In this document: in pieces, positions 1,764 through 26,019 of the stretch
Layout of the letters: each line of letters starts with the position of its first letter
Position numbering within the stretch: position 1 is the first letter of the stretch
Assembly (NCBI RefSeq): GCF_017792025.1
Contig: NZ_CP046956.1
Coordinates: forward strand, 2,728,001-2,792,000
Length of the DNA stretch: 64,000 bases
Reading direction: 5' to 3'
DNA from: Sediminibacillus dalangtanensis
Lineage (GTDB): Bacteria; Bacillota; Bacilli; Bacillales; Amphibacillaceae
Program-made: the position numbers and the translations under genes
The notes under the pieces: generated by a model
What the model saw: only the letters and a program-made list of their open reading frames with translations
The model's database searches: none
Told to the model about the DNA's origin: nothing

Positions 1764-2399
1764 ATGCAGACGCTTAAACAGGAAAGTCCTTTTTATTTAG
1801 CAGGGCTGATCATTCTCACCTTAGGGATTGGTTTAACCATTCAATCGCACTTAGGAACATCTCCATTCGATGCCTTGCTGGTCGGATTGTATCGCACCTT
1901 CGGACTGACAATCGGCTCCTGGGAGATTGTTGTGGGTTTTTCCATGATTGTGGGAAATGCCTTAGCCAAAAAGAGCCGTCCCGAATTTAGTGCCTTGATT
2001 ACTTCCTTTATTACCGGTGTAGGTATTGATGGCTGGGTATTTTTATTAAATGACAGGATAGAGCCGGAAAAATTGGTCGGACAGTCGGTTTGTTTCACTG
2101 CAGGGTTGTTATTCACGGCTGTTGGAGTGGCGACCTATCTTCAATCAAGAATCGCACCTAATCCTATGGACCGCTCCATGATTGTGATTACGGAAATCAC
2201 CGGATGGAGCGTCACCTATTCAAGAGCTTTGATAAGTATCATTCTGGTTCTTTTAGCTTTTCTGTGCAGCGGGGCAATTGGTCCAGGCACCTTGATTAAT
2301 GCCCTATTCAGCGGCGTTTTGATAAGCATTCTGCTCCCCTATATTAAAACGCTAAAGCATAAGGTAAGTATGGGAAAACATACTGCCCCTCATTGCTGA
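1764..2399 (+). CDS. YczE/YyaS/YitT-type integral membrane protein
   Basis: A 211-residue polytopic membrane protein with about five hydrophobic segments. The N-terminal pattern GIGLTIQSHLGTSPFDALLVGL and the following GLTIGSWEIVVGF region match the YczE family. In B. subtilis, YczE is encoded beside the surfactin locus and affects lipopeptide production, but biochemical activity is not established. The ATG follows AAAAAGGAGGAGGACC, a strong ribosome site. It is a single gene, with a terminator downstream. No synthetase genes are nearby, so the surfactin link cannot be carried over. Confidence 0.8.
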   Translation: MQTLKQESPFYLAGLIILTLGIGLTIQSHLGTSPFDALLVGLYRTFGLTIGSWEIVVGFSMIVGNALAKKSRPEFSALITSFITGVGIDGWVFLLNDRIEPEKLVGQSVCFTAGLLFTAVGVATYLQSRIAPNPMDRSMIVITEITGWSVTYSRALISIILVLLAFLCSGAIGPGTLINALFSGVLISILLPYIKTLKHKVSMGKHTAPHC

Positions 2400-2447
2400 A
2401 GAAACAGAGCTCACAGAGGTATCTGGATAAAAATCCGTGCTGAATAA

Positions 2448-2500
2448 ACAAGCGCAGTCCATTTGTCATTTAATTGACTATGGGCTGCGCTTGTTGTTTT
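2448..2500 (+). terminator. Intrinsic terminator between yczE-like gene and mcp
   Basis: Stem ACAAGCGCAGTCCA (2448-2461) with TGGGCTGCGCTTGT (2481-2494), one mismatch, then TGTTTTT on the plus strand. The minus strand also reads into TTTATT, so it may serve the convergent chemoreceptor gene too. Confidence 0.8.
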
Positions 2501-2587: not shown

Positions 2588-4282
2588 TTACACTTTAAAA
2601 CGTCCAATCAATCCATTTAAATTATCAGCCAGCCTGGAGAGTTCTGTCGACCTGTCTGCGATTTCTTCCATCGAACTGCTTGTTTGCTGAATGGAAGCAG
2701 AAGTTTCTTCGATGCCTGCTGCCGATTCTTCTGAAACAGCAGCAATATCTTCAATTGACTGGCTCATTTGCCCGCTTGTTTCCACGATACTGTTCAGGTT
2801 TCCAGTTATGACCGTGACACTGTCGACCATTTCATTTATGGAATGATTGATGCCGTCAAATGTTTGTCCGGTTGATTTGATTTGCGCTGTCCCGTTTTCC
2901 ACTTCTTGATATCCGCCTTGAAGGGCTTCGGCGACAGAACCGGATTCTGCTTGTATGCTAGTGACGATACCAGTAATATCTGTTACCGAAGCAGATACCT
3001 GTTCAGCAAGTTTTCTTACTTCATCGGCCACTACTGCGAAGCCTTTTCCTTGCTCACCTGCACGCGCTGCCTCGATAGCGGCATTTAATGCAAGCAAATT
3101 GGTTTGCTCCGCGATATCTTTTATGACTCCAACCAGTTTTGATATTTCTTTTGACTGGTTGTCCAATCCTTTTACTTTTTCCACGGCATTTTTGACAATG
3201 GTATCAATTTGGCTCATTTGTGCAATGGAAGAATGCATCTTATGGCTGCCTTCCTCCGTCAGCTTCAGGACACCTCCGGATTTCTCATGAATCGTATTCC
3301 CGCTTTCATGCGCTTCCTTAATTTTATCCGTGAAACCGGCCATTGATGCAGCCAAATCTGTCGTGGTATTAGCCTGCGATTCCGAGCCTGAAGAAAGCTC
3401 TTCCATCGTGACTGCCACTTGGTTGCTTCCTTCTTTTACTTCATTTGCCGATTGACTCAATTCTTCACTTTGTCCAGAAACGGTCGTTGAAACCGAGGTG
3501 ATTTCTGTCACCAATTCCCGCATATTTTCGTTCATTTGGTTGACTGCTATTACTAGCTGCCCGACTTCATCCCGGGAATGAACTTTCAGAGGTTCACGGC
3601 TCAAATCACCTTCCGCAACCAGTTTCATCCGTTTCATCACCCGAGATACGGGATTGGTGATCATACGCGCAGTTATAACTGCTATCAAGATACCAACCAC
3701 AGCAACAAGGATGGAAATGGCTACACTGGTAATCTGTGTTGTTTTCCCTGAAGAAACCAGACCGTCTCCGACTGTTTTGATTTCCGCTTCCCTTTGCACA
3801 GCCATATCATTGAAACCTTCCATCAATTCCCCAGCCAGCGGTTTAACCTGCAAGGATAAATTAGAAATCGCCTGGTCTTCATCGCCGTCCTTATATACGG
3901 CAAATACTTGTTCCCGGACCGTCGTTTCCCATTCGTCCCCTTTGGCGACCAATTGTTTCACTTGCTCATTATCGCTTAAAGCTAAAATCGTTTTTTCCAT
4001 CTGCTCAAGCTCTTCGGCATATCGATCAAATTGTTCCAGATAGTCCGGATCCCCATAGATCACATATCCTCTAGTCAACGCAATCATTTCTGCAATATGG
4101 AAAGCAGCCCGTTCATCTGCGATTAGTAAAGGGAGCTGTTCCGCGACTATCGACTCGGTATCTTGGTTTACCTTCTCTTGTGATAAATAATTATAAAGTC
4201 CGAATCCGATTACTAGTAAAATAACTACTGAGAAGCCCGCCAAAATCTTTGTTCTTAACCGTTTAAATTGAAATAGTTTCAT
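2588..4282 (-). CDS. Methyl-accepting chemotaxis protein
   Basis: A 564-residue transmembrane chemoreceptor. Residues ~11-29 form TM1, ~30-185 a helical extracellular sensor of the four-helix-bundle type, ~186-206 TM2, then a HAMP domain (~207-260) and a long cytoplasmic signalling coiled coil. The conserved hairpin tip, [20 protein letters not shown] followed by [14 protein letters not shown], is present at ~395-430 and would contact CheA and CheW. The start ATG follows AAAGGGAGAAGGTGAAGC. It lies 125 bp downstream of cheX with no obvious terminator between them, so both are probably read from one c-di-GMP-controlled transcript. The ligand is unknown. Confidence 0.95.
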
Positions 4283-4407
4283 TGCTTCACCTTCTCCCTT
4301 TGAATTAGGCCAAAAGCTGTTTTACAGTCACGGCACTAGTAAGCATATTTTCCCGCTGCATCAATCCTTTCTTTTCCATATTTCCAACTGCAAGACTTCT
4401 TCATGCT

Positions 4408-4914
4408 TTATGGATGGATCAACAAAGCGATCTCCATCTTGCCAATGGTTTCAAAGATCAACTCGACCTGTAGGGCTTGATGAAAGTTTCCAAGTACCTT
4501 ATGCCCATCCGAAGTAACCAAAGGAGAAGTAATGTCTGTTTCCAATCCCTTTTCATAAATACCAGTTGACATGCTGCCGGCAATCATATTGCCGAGCTCA
4601 CCCGAAAAGGAGTGGAGCATCTCTCCTTCCAGCGGCATGCCGAACATTGCTTCACCAATCGATCCAAATAAACCATCGTTGGCTTTCAAAACCAAAGTAC
4701 CTTCGACATCTCCCGTTACCTCGATTACTACGCCGAAAGGAATCGTCAAAGATTCTTTTAGTACTTTTGCTTTGCCTATTTCTGCTTCCAACGGAATGAC
4801 AGCTTGAATAGACTTTAATGTTTCATTGTATAATTCTTTTACAACTCGATTCTTTTCACTTGTTACGATGATAACCACTCCCCATTTTCGGAATATTCTA
4901 ACAAAAATAGTCAT
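4408..4914 (-). CDS. cheX: CheX-type chemotaxis phosphatase domain protein
   Basis: A CheX-like protein; the family dephosphorylates phospho-CheY. The conserved E-x-x-N motif is visible in FSGELGNMIAG, and the size (~150-168 residues) fits a stand-alone CheX. The start is uncertain. The ATG at 4914 comes directly after the U-tract of the upstream terminator and has no good ribosome site. A strong GGGGAG (4883-4878) is overlapped by an in-frame GTG at 4878 and is followed eight bases later by an in-frame ATC at 4869; family alignment favours a start in this latter region. The coordinates given are the outer limit. The gene precedes mcp and follows a c-di-GMP riboswitch. Confidence 0.85.
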   Translation of the reverse strand: MTIFVRIFRKWGVVIIVTSEKNRVVKELYNETLKSIQAVIPLEAEIGKAKVLKESLTIPFGVVIEVTGDVEGTLVLKANDGLFGSIGEAMFGMPLEGEMLHSFSGELGNMIAGSMSTGIYEKGLETDITSPLVTSDGHKVLGNFHQALQVELIFETIGKMEIALLIHP

Positions 4915-4947
4915 AAAAAGTGGCTATTCCCGTTCTCTGAATAGCCA
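4914..4947 (-). terminator. Riboswitch-associated intrinsic terminator
   Basis: On the minus strand, TGGCTATTC (4947-4939) pairs with GAATAGCCA (4929-4921), followed by CTTTTT. It sits between the c-di-GMP aptamer and cheX. The sequence GGCTAT occurs in the aptamer (complement of 4984-4989) as well as in the 5' arm of this hairpin, so the 3' arm could alternatively pair with the aptamer as an antiterminator. Confidence 0.8.
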
Positions 4948-4956
4948 TAGACTAGT

Positions 4957-5060
4957 TGAAAAGATATCGGCAGCCAGGCGATCATAGCCTCGGAGGCTTT
5001 AGACCCTAAGCTTTGCGTCCCCTTTTTTCAAAGAGTTTGCCCTTTTCGTTCGTTCTTTTT
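4957..5060 (-). promoter_or_regulatory. Cyclic di-GMP-I (GEMM-I) riboswitch
   Basis: Read on the minus strand the segment contains the class-I signature in order: AAAAGGGCAAACTC, GGGGACGCAAAGC, GGGTCTAA, then a second variable stem (AGCCTCCGAGGCT), ATGATCGCCTGGCTGCCG and a closing strand TCTTTT that can pair with AAAAAGA at the 5' end. The GGCAAAC, GACGCAAAGC and GGCTGCCG blocks match the known aptamer, including the tetraloop-receptor part. It is followed by an intrinsic terminator and then cheX-mcp, an arrangement for transcriptional control. Whether c-di-GMP switches the genes on or off cannot be told by eye. Confidence 0.9.
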
Positions 5061-5093
5061 GACTAAGTATAAAGTATTAGTTGGTTTGCATTC

Positions 5094-5121
5094 ATTATAA
5101 TATATTTTCGACATAATTCAA
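5094..5121 (-). promoter_or_regulatory. Sigma-A-type promoter for the riboswitch-cheX-mcp unit
   Basis: Minus strand TTGAAT (5121-5116), 16-bp spacer, TATAAT (5099-5094), about 35 bases upstream of the aptamer. No sigma-D (TAAA/GCCGATAT) promoter was found at this position. Confidence 0.55.
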
Positions 5122-5388: not shown

Positions 5389-6345
5389 TTATTCCATACT
5401 GCTAGCAACTTCGTTTACCATTTCCGACACGGAAATCAATCCTCCGCCGGATAGGTACCAATAATCTGGATTCAGATAAACAATATTCTCTTCTTTATAT
5501 GCTTTTGTATCTTGTACTAGTTTGTTATCCAATGTTTTTTCGGCAGAGGATTCACCGCCTACTACTTTATTCCGATCCACGACAAATAAATAGTCCGGAT
5601 CTTTTTCTACTAAGTATTCAAAAGATATATTTTGTCCATGTGTGGAAGCTTCGATGTTTTCATCAACTGCCGGAAATCCAAATACATCATGAATCACGCC
5701 AAAACGGGAACCAGGACCGTAAGCATTGATGCTGCCATCGTTGGTAAGGATGATTAAACTATTTTTCCCGCTTGCGGAAGCTTTTTCATTCAAGTCGGAA
5801 ATTTGCTCGTCGATTGTAGCCAGTTCTTCTTCCACTTCAGACTCTTTACCGAAAATTTCTCCCAGTACTGTTGCGTTTTCTTTAAAAGAATCCATATACC
5901 TGGTCGTGTCGACACCAAGATGGATGGTAGGTGCCAGCTCGTTCAAATCCTCATATGCTTCGGCAGTACGGCCAGAAATGATGATTAGATCAGGATCGAT
6001 CTCGCTTAACTTTTCGAAATCCGGTTCGAAAAGGGTACCGGCGTTTTCATACTCCTCACTATCATAATCAGCTAGGTAAGAAGGGAGATTTTCCTTTGGT
6101 ACGGCTGTTACATCGACATCAAGTTTTTTCAATGTATCGAGTGATCCAAAGTCAAATACCACTACCTTTTCTGGATGGACAGGTACCTCGGTCTTGCCTA
6201 ATTCATGCTCGACCGTAACGGTCTCCTGTTCCCCGTTATCTGAAGCAGCCGCAGCATCATCACTGGATGAATCCTGACTTCCGCATGCTGCTGTAAACAC
6301 AGCTAATATAAGAATGGAAATTAGCACTGCTAATCTTTTTGTCAT
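5389..6345 (-). CDS. yclQ: Siderophore-binding lipoprotein, YclQ/petrobactin type
   Basis: A 318-residue periplasmic-binding-like lipoprotein of the FatB/CeuE/YclQ group, which captures ferric petrobactin-type catecholate siderophores outside the cell. The N-terminus is a lipoprotein signal ending in VFTAAC, with Cys21 the acylation site, followed by an acidic Ser/Asp/Ala linker and two lobes joined by a long helix (DP..IDEQISDLNEKA region). The motif FEPDFEKLSEIDPDLIIISGR is typical of the family. It is last in a yclN-O-P-Q order as in B. subtilis but is separated from yclP by 200 bases that contain a candidate RNA structure. The start ATG follows AGAGGTGAAAGGTT. Confidence 0.93.
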   Translation of the reverse strand: MTKRLAVLISILILAVFTAACGSQDSSSDDAAAASDNGEQETVTVEHELGKTEVPVHPEKVVVFDFGSLDTLKKLDVDVTAVPKENLPSYLADYDSEEYENAGTLFEPDFEKLSEIDPDLIIISGRTAEAYEDLNELAPTIHLGVDTTRYMDSFKENATVLGEIFGKESEVEEELATIDEQISDLNEKASASGKNSLIILTNDGSINAYGPGSRFGVIHDVFGFPAVDENIEASTHGQNISFEYLVEKDPDYLFVVDRNKVVGGESSAEKTLDNKLVQDTKAYKEENIVYLNPDYWYLSGGGLISVSEMVNEVASSME

Positions 6346-6380
6346 AACCTTTCACCTCTTGTTAAAATATGTTTTTAATA

Positions 6381-6530
6381 GACAGGATAAAGCATTGCTC
6401 GTCTTCCTCGCACTGTCGTCCTGCTTTCCTTTCGACATCATGGAACAGTTATTACTTGGGGCCCACTGTCAGAATGCCATTCAGGACTGCAGTTGGCAGT
6501 GCTACCGAAAAGTCACTATACTATCCTGTC
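6381..6530 (-). other. Candidate structured RNA between yclP and yclQ
   Basis: GACAGGATA (6381-6389) and TATCCTGTC (6522-6530) are perfect 9-base complements enclosing 132 bases. The enclosed part contains further short complementary pairs (for example ACTGC/GCAGT). There is no U-tract after the closing stem, so it is not a simple terminator; the yclQ ribosome site lies ~20 bases beyond. No known RNA family was recognised. Confidence 0.4.
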
Positions 6531-6545
6531 ATTTGATGCACAGTG

Positions 6546-7304
6546 TTAAGAAAAATACAAACAAATCCTGCATTGATCGATATCCTGGATATCGATATCC
6601 ATATCATACACTTCTTTCAAGACCGCCTTGTCAATAATCTCATTTGTCGGTCCCTTGTTCACAATCTTTCCGTCTTTTAATGCCACAATATAATCAGAAT
6701 AAACAGAAGCAAAGTTTACATCATGAATGACGAGGATGACCGTTTTTCCAAGATCATTGACCAGCCTGCGCAAGACTTTCATGATTTGCACGGAATGCTT
6801 CATATCAAGATTGTTCAGCGGCTCGTCGAGCAAAATATATTCTGTATCCTGTGCAATGACCATGGCGATATATGCCCGCTGCTGCTGTCCTCCACTTAAC
6901 TGATCGAGGAATTTGTCTTGAATGTCCTGTAACTCCATATAGGCAATTGCTTCATCGACGAATCGCTTGTCTTCTTTGCTTAATTTTCCCTGGGAATAAG
7001 GGAAGCGGCCAAAGCTGACCAGTTCTTTTACAGTAAGCCGGATACTTATATGGTTGGACTGACGCAAAATCGATATTTTCTTGGCCAGCTCTTTGTTTTT
7101 ACTTTCACTCACTTCCTGGCCATCTATCAAAATTTCACCATGGTCTTTCGCTATTAAACGGCTGACCATCGACAACAGGGTGCTTTTACCGGCCCCGTTT
7201 GGACCGATAAAAGAAGTAATTTTTCCTCGTGGTATATTCATTGATACATTATCCACTACATTTTTCATTCCATATTGCTTGGAAACCTCTTTTACAACTA
7301 CCAT
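6546..7304 (-). CDS. yclP: Siderophore ABC transporter ATPase
   Basis: A 252-residue ATPase that powers the YclNO permease in ferric siderophore import. Walker A GPNGAGKST (~residues 33-41), ABC signature LSGGQQQR (~140), Walker B YILLDEP (~160) and the downstream switch His in VIHD are all present. It starts at ATG 7304, inside the end of yclO (7-bp overlap), indicating translational coupling. The C-terminal DIDIQDIDQCR tail is typical of the YclP/FatE group. Confidence 0.95.
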   Translation of the reverse strand: MVVVKEVSKQYGMKNVVDNVSMNIPRGKITSFIGPNGAGKSTLLSMVSRLIAKDHGEILIDGQEVSESKNKELAKKISILRQSNHISIRLTVKELVSFGRFPYSQGKLSKEDKRFVDEAIAYMELQDIQDKFLDQLSGGQQQRAYIAMVIAQDTEYILLDEPLNNLDMKHSVQIMKVLRRLVNDLGKTVILVIHDVNFASVYSDYIVALKDGKIVNKGPTNEIIDKAVLKEVYDMDIDIQDIDQCRICLYFS

Positions 7305-8248
7305 GCTTTACTCTCCTTTAATAAAAGATAGATAAAGTAAACACCACCGACAAAATTGACGATTACACTCAAGGTCGTGGAAAAGCTAAACACTCGTTCA
7401 ACGATCAGCTGTCCGCCGACAAGGGCGACAATGCTAATTAAAACAGACCCAAGAATCAGGTAGCGATGGCGATAGGTTTTCAAGAATTCGTGGGCCACAT
7501 TTGCCACCAACAGGCCAAGAAAGGTTATCGGGCCGACCAGTGCCGTGGATATCGACACCAGAATTGCAATGATGACCAGCATCCGTTTGACCACATAATC
7601 GTAATCAACACCCAAATTGATTGCCTGTTCCTTTCCTAGTGCCATCACATCCAGATACTTGGAAAAACGCCAAAAATAAATCGCTATCAGCAACACCAGC
7701 ACAAATGAAATGGTAAGCAAGTCGGTATTTACATTGTTGAAACTGGCAAACATTTTATTCTGGACGATCATAAATTCATTTGGATCGATCAGAACCTGCA
7801 TGAAAGTCGACAGGCTCTCAAAAAAGGTACCAAAAATCAGTCCGACCAAAAGGAGAAAGTAAATATTCTTGCCACTCTGTTTAAAAAGCAGCTTATAAAG
7901 CACTCCGGCAAACAAGACCATCATGCCGACAGAAAGAATGAAATTGAAATTTTTATTTAAAACCATCATGCTATTAGATCCAAATACAAAAATGATAAAC
8001 GTTTGAATCAGTAAGTAGAGCGAATCCAAACCGATAATGCTCGGAGTGAGAATCCGATTGTTGGTGATGGTTTGAAAAATGATAGTTGAAAATGCGATTA
8101 CTCCGCCTGTAAGCACGATAGCCAAAATCTTCGTTGTCCTTCTTGGCAATATGTAGTCCCAATTGCTGCCTGCGCTTCCGAACAGGAAGATGAGCACCAG
8201 GACAGCAGACATCACTGTAAGGATGATTAGTTTTGTTCGATTACTCAT
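7298..8248 (-). CDS. yclO: Siderophore ABC transporter permease, FecCD family
   Basis: A 316-residue FecCD-family permease with 8-10 transmembrane helices, forming a heterodimer with YclN. The conserved cytoplasmic coupling region near the C-terminus (ALVGPITFLGLLVANVAHEFLKTYRH) contacts the ATPase. It overlaps yclN by 8 bp and yclP by 7 bp, so the three are one coupled unit. The length equals that of B. subtilis YclO (about 315). Confidence 0.94.
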   Translation of the reverse strand: MSNRTKLIILTVMSAVLVLIFLFGSAGSNWDYILPRRTTKILAIVLTGGVIAFSTIIFQTITNNRILTPSIIGLDSLYLLIQTFIIFVFGSNSMMVLNKNFNFILSVGMMVLFAGVLYKLLFKQSGKNIYFLLLVGLIFGTFFESLSTFMQVLIDPNEFMIVQNKMFASFNNVNTDLLTISFVLVLLIAIYFWRFSKYLDVMALGKEQAINLGVDYDYVVKRMLVIIAILVSISTALVGPITFLGLLVANVAHEFLKTYRHRYLILGSVLISIVALVGGQLIVERVFSFSTTLSVIVNFVGGVYFIYLLLKESKAW

Positions 8249-9191
8249 ATGCTTTTCTCCTCAATACCAGGTATAGAAAAATCCCGCTGCCGATTACGCC
8301 GACGGTGACACCGATGGCAATTTCATAGGGATAAATGATCACCCTGCCGATCACATCACAGGCAAGAACAAATACGGCACCTAGTAAAGCAGTATGAGTA
8401 AGGCTTTTTTTCAGATGGTCTCCCTGATAAATAGTAACGATATTCGGAATGATCAAACCCAGAAAAGGAATCATTCCGACAGTCAGAACGACTACCGTAG
8501 TTACCAGTGCGACTATCACCAAACCGATATTGACAACTTGTTTATGGTTCAACCCCAAGTTGGTTGAAAACTCCTCGCCCATACCGGCTATCGTAAAGCG
8601 ATTGGCGTAAAGGTAAGCAATAGCCAGCAATGGAATACTGATAAACAATATTTCGTATCTCCCCTGCATAATCAAGGCGAAATTGCCTTGCAGCCAGGAT
8701 GACATGTTTTGAATCAAATCCTCTTTATATGCAAAAAAAGTAGTGATCGAGCTGACAATATTGCCGAACATCAATCCAACGAGTGGAATGAAGATGGCAT
8801 CTTTGAATTTTACCTTGTCGAGAATTTTCATAAAAATAAAGGTTCCCAACAAAGCAAAGAAAAAAGCAACCATCATCTTTTGCAATGGTCCTGCTGAAGA
8901 AAACAGCATCAACGACATCAGAATGCCGAACCTGGCCGAATCAATAGTTCCAGCCGTAGTAGGAGAGACAAATTTGTTTCTGCTCAGCTGCTGCATAATC
9001 AAACCGCATATGCTCATTCCCATTCCGGCAATCAATATACTGATAAGCCTTGGTATCCTGCTCACCCACAAAATCTCCAGCTGGTCTCCTGTGAGATGAA
9101 ATATATCGGAAGGTGACAAGCTTGTCACTCCGATGAATAATGACGCGAAAGATAATACGAGTAATGCCAGTGCCAAATAACGTAACTTCAT
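8241..9191 (-). CDS. yclN: Siderophore ABC transporter permease, FecCD family
   Basis: The first permease of the yclNOPQ-type importer, 316 residues from the ATG at 9191, which follows AAGGA with seven-base spacing. An in-frame ATG at 9263 would add 24 residues, but that region is the Fur box itself, so it is excluded. FecCD motifs include VSRIPRLISILIAGMGMSICGLIMQ near the N-terminus and GMIPFLGLIIPNI in the ATPase-coupling loop. It is iron-regulated through the upstream Fur box. Confidence 0.94.
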   Translation of the reverse strand: MKLRYLALALLVLSFASLFIGVTSLSPSDIFHLTGDQLEILWVSRIPRLISILIAGMGMSICGLIMQQLSRNKFVSPTTAGTIDSARFGILMSLMLFSSAGPLQKMMVAFFFALLGTFIFMKILDKVKFKDAIFIPLVGLMFGNIVSSITTFFAYKEDLIQNMSSWLQGNFALIMQGRYEILFISIPLLAIAYLYANRFTIAGMGEEFSTNLGLNHKQVVNIGLVIVALVTTVVVLTVGMIPFLGLIIPNIVTIYQGDHLKKSLTHTALLGAVFVLACDVIGRVIIYPYEIAIGVTVGVIGSGIFLYLVLRRKAYE

Positions 9192-9240
9192 AAATAAATC
9201 CTTCACTTTCCGTCTGCTCAAAAATAAACTCGGTACCCAA

Positions 9241-9303
9241 TCAATAATGAGATTCATTATCAATTAGCTACCCTTATATTATCATGTAATTTTCATCTGT
9301 CAA
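9241..9303 (-). promoter_or_regulatory. Promoter and Fur box of yclNOPQ
   Basis: On the minus strand, TTGACA (9303-9298), a 16-bp spacer and TAATAT (9281-9276) form a good sigma-A promoter. Just downstream, TTGATAATGA (9263-9254) and TCATTATTGA (9250-9241) form an inverted repeat that fits the Fur 7-1-7 pattern TGATAAT/ATTATCA. Fur bound there would block initiation when iron is sufficient. Confidence 0.85.
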
Positions 9304-22169: not shown

Positions 22170-22300
22170 AAGAAAAGCGCAAGCGCTGTTTAAAGGATTA
22201 CAGGCTAAATCCGCCACCTCTTGTGGCAACGCCTGCATGACCCACTTCGTGTGGGCCTCCGAAAAGCTTAAGTCCTCGAAGTGGTTTATGCTTTCTTATC
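22170..22300 (+). repeat. Dispersed Bacillaceae intergenic repeat, copy 2 (diverged)
   Basis: Immediately follows copy 1 and restarts with AAGAAAAGCGCAAGCGC, continues with CGCCACCTC...GTGGCAACGCC and ends near AAGCTTAAGTCCTCGAAGTGG, words also present in copy 1. The 3' end is decayed. Confidence 0.55.
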
Positions 22301-25657: not shown

Positions 25658-26019
25658 TGGTGGAGACGGTGGGAATCGAACCCACGTCCAGAGATATCGT
25701 CACTCAGGCATCTACGAGCGTAGTTGGTATATTATCATTCACTACCCTTTCAGCCTACCAACAGGCTTCCGGAGAGCTAGTCTGATTAATCTCTTCTGGC
25801 ATCCTCAGACGGTGGATGACAGCGTAGCCCGCTTCAGTTGAGACCCTTCAATCTGCCACACGGGCGATGGCAGGAAGGATCCTTTAGTGCTACTTACGCA
25901 GCTGCTAAAGAGTAATTGTTTTCTTTGCCAGTTATATTTAGGCGATTAACGGTTTACGAGACGTAACCTCGACCCGCAGCCTGAGCTCGATCTATCCCTG
26001 TCGAATCCGTAACGTCCCC
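25658..26019 (-). ncRNA. ssrA: Transfer-messenger RNA (tmRNA)
   Basis: A 362-base tmRNA. The 5' end GGGGACG (26019-26013) pairs with CGTCTCC near the 3' end, including the G3-U wobble read by alanyl-tRNA synthetase; the 3' end carries GGTTCGATTCCC and an encoded CCA (25660-25658). The tag frame at 25929-25894 reads GKENNYSLAAA and then TAA, giving the tag A-GKENNYSLAAA. It rescues ribosomes stalled on broken messages and marks the products for ClpXP, together with SmpB encoded just upstream. Confidence 0.96.

Follow-up and report, generated by a model that had tools for sequence, protein, structure and literature searches.

A c-di-GMP-I riboswitch before a cheX-chemoreceptor pair in Sediminibacillus dalangtanensis: a predicted OFF switch on a probably reduced chemosensory module, with a probable AUC start for cheX

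Cyclic di-GMP (c-di-GMP) is a second messenger known chiefly through its action on motors, adhesion and matrix. That a c-di-GMP-I (GEMM) riboswitch can precede a chemoreceptor gene is already known from Bc1 of the Bacillus cereus group. According to the available text of that report (PMC11218506), Bc1 of Bacillus thuringiensis lies upstream of mcpE and turned on a reporter in Bacillus subtilis, its first terminator being unfolded with c-di-GMP; it was unresponsive in its own host, where McpE was the same between strains with altered c-di-GMP enzymes. Here we analyzed a locus of similar layout, with a c-di-GMP-I aptamer and an intrinsic terminator before a chemoreceptor gene (mcp), in a 64,000-nucleotide stretch of Sediminibacillus dalangtanensis (contig NZ_CP046956.1, positions 2,728,001 to 2,792,000; hereafter the window). 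Compared with what is described of Bc1, the window locus has one terminator and a shorter expression platform, carries the CheX phosphatase gene (cheX) between switch and receptor, and is predicted to turn its genes off, whereas Bc1 is described as ON in a reporter. We consider it fairly likely that this riboswitch turns off transcription of cheX-mcp, most likely a reduced form of a larger module, and that CheX is probably translated from an AUC codon. The sequences show the aptamer, the terminator, the genes with their distribution and neighbours, and the lack of a well-placed canonical start, whereas the response to the ligand, the direction of the switch, the use of AUC, the direction of evolution and any effect on swimming are inferred from them. 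In the c-di-GMP-I literature, as far as the accessible texts go, mcp is named as a target, while the targets found here are operons of cheX or, in relatives, of cheX with cheA; those texts hold no account of cheX or cheA-module targets, of such breadth within a single family, of a decay case or of an AUC start.

An earlier reading of the DNA letters alone (the sequence-only reading) had placed a promoter, the aptamer, the terminator, cheX and mcp in one direction, and all of them do lie on the minus strand of the window, as follows.

5094..5121, minus strand: sigma-A-like promoter TTGAAT-16-TATAAT (promoter scan, same-genus conservation)
4966..5051, minus strand: c-di-GMP-I riboswitch aptamer, RF01051 (covariance-model match)
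4984..4989, minus strand: GGCTAT, the alternative partner for the terminator 3' arm in the sequence-only reading (sequence)
4965..4970, minus strand: CCGATA, proposed first antiterminator strand, made of the aptamer 3' end and one further base (sequence, family pairing test)
4945..4949, minus strand: TATGG, proposed second antiterminator strand, which overlaps the terminator 5' arm (sequence, pairing test)
4915..4947, minus strand: intrinsic terminator with a 9-bp stem, 9-nt loop and T5 (sequence, folding)
4878..4883, minus strand: Shine-Dalgarno sequence GGGGAG of cheX (sequence, start-region comparison)
4867..4869, minus strand: ATC, proposed near-cognate cheX start (8 nt past the last G of the Shine-Dalgarno sequence)
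4408..4869, minus strand: cheX, family of phosphatases of phosphorylated CheY (CheY-P), 153 codons from ATC (PF13690; mechanical open reading frame (ORF) 4408-4914)
2588..4282, minus strand: mcp, membrane chemoreceptor, 564 aa (4HB_MCP_1, HAMP, MCPsignal)
2447..2495, minus strand: terminator-like hairpin 3' of mcp (fold of -26.3 kcal/mol)

The window aptamer matches RF01051 over its full length (82.7 bits with a gathering score of 35, E-value 8.9e-15, model positions 1-87 of 87), in agreement with the class proposed from the letters alone and, like other c-di-GMP-I riboswitches, upstream of motility or signalling genes. Its core aligns gap-free to the Rfam consensus, the GAAA loop is present, and it carries all 22 columns that are invariant across 24 aligned aptamers (the window's included). 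The promoter box matches the consensus at 10 of 12 positions; it is weak alone, the scan having returned 8 promoter-like sites with 9.7 expected by chance, and it is kept in all five same-genus leaders. The window's genome carries four c-di-GMP-I aptamers, this one included, the five members of the genus carry between four and nine, and at least one is present in 120 of the 159 genomes of the family. With seven GGDEF matches in the same genome, c-di-GMP is probably made by this host.

The two gene identities given in the sequence-only reading were likewise recovered by Pfam. The cheX product can be assigned to the CheY-P phosphatase family PF13690 (38.8 bits, cut-off 27), and the mcp product matches 4HB_MCP_1, HAMP and MCPsignal, each above its cut-off. 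The CheX profile also matched the structures 1xko (E-value 8.2e-20) and 1squ. E-x2-N is the catalytic motif of CheX phosphatases; it is present here together with the conserved proline, E90, N93 and P115 being invariant in 16 of 16 aligned sequences. What sets this member apart from the family described so far is the riboswitch upstream of its gene and, in this genus, the probable AUC start. The closest named relatives of the protein are in Sediminibacillus halophilus and S. terrae (94% identity each, best segment) and in Virgibacillus senegalensis (79%). One CheX match above cut-off was found in the host genome, with two CheC-domain proteins elsewhere that, judged by length, are probably CheC and FliY. 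A single CheA match (PF02895) was found in each of the five genus members, the host included; as the cheX-mcp operon has no CheA, CheX and the receptor would have to feed the cell's single CheA/CheY pathway.

Between aptamer and cheX, the predicted intrinsic terminator is indeed found: a 9-bp stem formed by TGGCTATTC (4947-4939) and GAATAGCCA (4929-4921), followed by C and TTTTT, with a local folding energy of -11.7 kcal/mol. A simple terminator scanner did not list this hairpin, its loop limit being 8 and the loop here being 9. A terminator-like hairpin precedes cheX in all 26 aptamer-bearing cheX leaders, weakly in the one whose aptamer is decayed. As long as the terminator 3' arm is not yet transcribed, TATGG, which overlaps the 5' arm, is able to base-pair with the CCGATA that ends the aptamer, leaving one G bulged, and plain pairings at the same place recur in other genera (CCAAA:TTTGG 13 times; CCAAG:CTTGG, CCAAT:ATTGG and CCTAA:TTAGG 4 times each). 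We compared the three bases past the aptamer CC with the three before the arm GG in 56 of 125 distinct aptamers, those with a GGCTATTC-type stretch: on average 2.21 of 3 were complementary, against 1.96 in permuted leaders (p 0.0004). The C within CCGATA would correspond to C92 of Vc2. Since the aptamer CC holds the C taken to contact c-di-GMP, ligand binding and antitermination should be mutually exclusive, and an OFF switch is the predicted outcome. At low c-di-GMP, as in swimming cells, the aptamer 3' end would pair with the terminator 5' arm, RNA polymerase would read through, and CheX and the receptor would be made. At high c-di-GMP, as in settling cells, the aptamer would hold its own 3' end, the terminator would form and both genes would be off.

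Several observations weigh against this OFF mechanism. Related leaders are not independent in the 56-leader test, and collapsing them to 26 distinct combinations removes the pairing signal (p 0.37). Unmatched combinations also recur (CCAAT:TTTGG and CCAAA:AATGG 3 times each, CCAAA:ATTGG and CCAAG:ATTGG twice each), and the pairing in the genus requires the bulged G, giving 1-2 of 3 in an ungapped count. By bracket reading, minimum-energy folds of the RNA before the 3' arm pair the 5' arm with the 5' leader (window, L005 and L006, the last two from the nearest relatives); predicted folds also show the 5'-leader CTTAGTC pairing with the linker or with TGGCTA. Because kinship among the leaders inflates the first test, and collapsing them drops good pairs that repeat, we regard the support for an antiterminator formed by the aptamer 3' end and the terminator 5' arm as moderate and mixed. 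The behavior of Bc1 is a further point against, since in the available text (PMC11218506) it turned a reporter on and was unresponsive in its native strain; as McpE did not change there, an effect of c-di-GMP on readthrough, and through it on chemotaxis, cannot be assumed here.

The analogy with Bc1 leads to an alternative that we consider rather unlikely, in which c-di-GMP would melt the terminator and turn cheX-mcp on, as proposed for the first Bc1 terminator. The pairing of the terminator 5' arm with the 5' leader in the predicted folds would also suit such an ON switch. On the other side, many leaders of the family have an aptamer 3' end, taken as the ligand contact, that is complementary to the terminator 5' arm, so that binding would couple to termination. 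Also against it, Bc1 is described with two terminators and an aptamer-to-AUG distance of up to 220 bp (PMC11218506, available text), whereas in the window one terminator was seen between aptamer and cheX, without the tandem dual arrangement of the Bc1 type, and 96 nt separate the aptamer from the ATC. It is improbable that the riboswitch has lost all control and survives as a relic, as seems the case in V. senegalensis, a sister species with a decayed aptamer. The missing response of Bc1 in its host would fit such a relic, but the score of the window aptamer is well over the RF01051 gathering score, all 22 invariant columns are present, and promoter, terminator and spacing are kept in close relatives. 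About as improbable is the switch of the sequence-only reading, in which the terminator 3' arm ATAGCC (4927-4922) pairs with GGCTAT (4989-4984) in the aptamer, because this 6-bp complementarity, real in the window, shrinks to 3 bp or fewer in each of the remaining three leaders of the genus with an intact aptamer (L101, L100 and L110), which led us to reject it as a general mechanism, gives matches of 3-6 bp in mixed places outside the genus, and is easily obtained since GGCTATGA resembles the RF01051 consensus.

We also considered how far the riboswitch and its genes extend across the family. A profile of 16 CheX proteins detected CheX in 94 of the 159 family genomes; the statement of the sequence-only reading that stand-alone CheX is uncommon in Bacillus therefore finds no support in this family, which is not Bacillus proper. 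Of the 107 CheX matches, 105 loci were analyzed; the two left out, in G072 and on contig C20 of G067, are partial. A covariance model built from the 24 aptamers identified an intact c-di-GMP-I aptamer upstream of cheX at 25 of these loci, in 24 genomes; six of the 25 (window, L101, L097, L099, L098 and L110) copy rows of the model and provide no independent test. At 79 loci there is no aptamer match and at one a decayed aptamer only, which we count against the OFF-switch reading: CheX itself does not need this control.

Among the aptamer-led loci, the gene after cheX was scored in 24 of 26, leaving out L150, where the next ORF has 85 aa, and L104, where mcp is lost and the ORF is spurious. We assigned it from domain tallies and sequences, eight matches of the CheW domain being read as five cheW and three full-length cheA: it is cheA in 10 cases, a chemoreceptor gene in 6 and cheW in 5, while another cheX follows in 2 and a LytR-type gene in the last one. 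The CheA dimer domain was searched in 20 genomes, and in three draft assemblies (G106, G125 and G020) the single CheA match lies directly behind the switched cheX. The fullest arrangement, with proteins identified by Pfam, is that of Oceanobacillus limi (L010), in the order aptamer, LuxR-type regulator, motA, motB, aptamer, cheX, cheA, cheW, a receiver-only (cheY-like) gene and mcp. The larger module of related genera comprises cheX-cheA-cheW-cheY-mcp, next to a LuxR-type regulator-motA-motB unit that has its own switch. In the genus itself, genome G001 has the order aptamer-cheX-cheW-mcp. The window switch belongs, by sequence, to this wider set of c-di-GMP switches before chemotaxis genes, and its aptamer-cheX-mcp order looks like a reduced form of the larger switched module; evolution would then have run by reduction and not by growth. 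A tblastn search with the CheW of G001 found no match to a cheW remnant in the 125-nt spacer between cheX and mcp of the window.

Virgibacillus senegalensis (L007, the same locus as L104) offers a natural experiment. No mcp lies there between cheX and the conserved next gene, so that the gene facing mcp in the window (1764-2399) faces cheX directly. The aptamer has decayed (31.5 bits with the 24-aptamer model) and lacks the conserved GGCAAAC and GACGCAAAGC, while CheX remains as similar to the window protein as given above. As the receptor is lost where the aptamer is decayed, the switch seems to be under selection because of the receptor, which suggests from this one case, with the receptor scored at this locus, that the switch was kept for the receptor's sake.

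The start of cheX was compared across 104 distinct start regions from the 105 fetched loci. A script assigned a canonical start to 95 of them (ATG 56, TTG 30, GTG 9), located 4-12 nt past the Shine-Dalgarno sequence with a mode of 7, and four more (L117, L125, L138 and L146), whose Shine-Dalgarno sequence is GGGGG, were counted canonical by eye. The remaining five, without a canonical start at working distance, are exactly the five genomes of the genus. In each of them ATC is the sole candidate start at working distance and is conserved, an arrangement found at none of the 99 other loci; it lies 8 nt past the last G of the Shine-Dalgarno sequence in all five (7 or 8 as measured by the script). 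Two nearby isoleucine codons (24 and 28) vary at the third base. A similar test on the window itself found canonical starts for 44 of 49 long ORFs, cheX being among the five that fail. We judge it likely from these comparisons that cheX starts at AUC in this genus, and the five related loci may represent one evolutionary event.

The competing start is GTG 4878-4876, which would remove any need for AUC and to which we give a minor share of belief. It is the sole in-frame canonical codon near the Shine-Dalgarno sequence in the five genomes and is identical in all of them, and an annotation program would probably pick either this GTG or ATG 4914. Against it, the GTG overlaps the Shine-Dalgarno sequence (GGAG, GAGG or GGAGG) and has none of its own in any of the five. 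The TG after GGAG is also part of the extended complement of the anti-Shine-Dalgarno sequence, a point that we counted against this start. Although GTG and ATC are both fixed, the codons between them vary, and those that would be the second and third of the protein read V/I/V/S/L and I/I/I/F/K. L104 has an additional in-frame ATG five codons before the GTG, without a Shine-Dalgarno sequence. ATG 4914, the mechanical start, was rejected: it has no Shine-Dalgarno sequence, lies directly past the terminator T run, and opens a frame that is closed in L005 and L006. A leader peptide from this ATG was rejected as well, since it lacks a Shine-Dalgarno sequence, runs in frame into cheX in the window and, on our reading of the sequences, ends within or before the Shine-Dalgarno sequence in L005 and L006.

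Near-cognate initiation is known mainly from infC (IF3), whose AUU start is the textbook example. In the host's own infC (L262), GGAGG is followed by ATT ATT AGC AAA, a canonical codon is missing at this distance, and the gene apparently starts at ATT behind GGAGGTGGCTC. The proposed cheX start has the same layout, a near-cognate codon behind a Shine-Dalgarno sequence with no canonical codon there; it differs in being AUC and not AUU, and in belonging to a chemotaxis gene with no known reason of the IF3 feedback kind. A search of the literature on AUC starts gave one Bacillus match, an artificial AUC mutation of rny in B. subtilis with much lower expression (PMC10303841); a natural bacterial AUC start may nonetheless be in print. 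An AUC start would keep CheX low relative to the receptor.

If this reading is right, c-di-GMP would gate transcription of phosphatase and receptor together, with the near-cognate codon holding the phosphatase at a low level compared with the receptor. The RNA-level control would extend in related genera to CheA, which c-di-GMP would turn on or off; in at least three genomes no other CheA was found. Production of a CheY-P phosphatase and a receptor, and in those genera also of the chemotaxis kinase, appears to depend altogether on the second messenger. For the combined picture, a double gate of c-di-GMP terminator and AUC start in Sediminibacillus together with on/off control of the CheA core in its relatives, we see the chances as evenly balanced. 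The family provides natural experiments, from the full module through the reduced pair to a species with lost receptor and decayed switch, and a chemotaxis gene with a conserved AUC start would lend itself to asking how near-cognate initiation is selected.

Other aptamers of the family were surveyed through the first downstream ORF of 96 of them, among the matches listed, a scope that applies to the counts below. A LuxR-type domain was found in 15 of these ORFs. By sequence, an aptamer lies before a LuxR-type regulator and a chemoreceptor gene at L079 (in the host's own genome), L085, L091 and L094. At L087 (G001:C4:264200-270000), two aptamers about 1.9 kb apart precede motA-motB and a chemoreceptor gene, respectively. 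At L077 (G000:C1:2918000-2922500), an aptamer (4131-4217, minus strand) precedes a 59-aa ORF without Pfam match (3893-4069, minus strand), and the second ORF (3564-3899, minus strand) encodes a SinR-like regulator (HTH_3 and SinI domain); c-di-GMP may feed the SinI/SinR biofilm switch there. The SinI domain occurs in 5 of the 96 first ORFs. A c-di-GMP-I-like aptamer at L093 (G003:C7:1483000-1487300) lies near genes of GTP cyclohydrolase and PTPS type (by sequence), families found in 3 of the 96 first ORFs each; it could have a different ligand or be placed there by chance. Several terminator-less leaders have GGAGG shortly past the aptamer, so control in these may be translational. Contig C64 of G113 has two aptamers in the same direction with starts 465 nt apart (L050 and L202).

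In the window, the genes upstream of the riboswitch (5389-9263, minus strand, same direction) comprise a periplasmic-binding-protein gene (PF01497) and, beside it, apparent ATP-binding cassette transporter ATPase and permease genes, which by sequence probably serve iron-siderophore uptake. Elsewhere in the window are a Bacillaceae-1 RNA (22189-22255, plus strand, 70.9 bits) and a transfer-messenger RNA (tmRNA; 25658-26019, minus strand, 208.1 bits).

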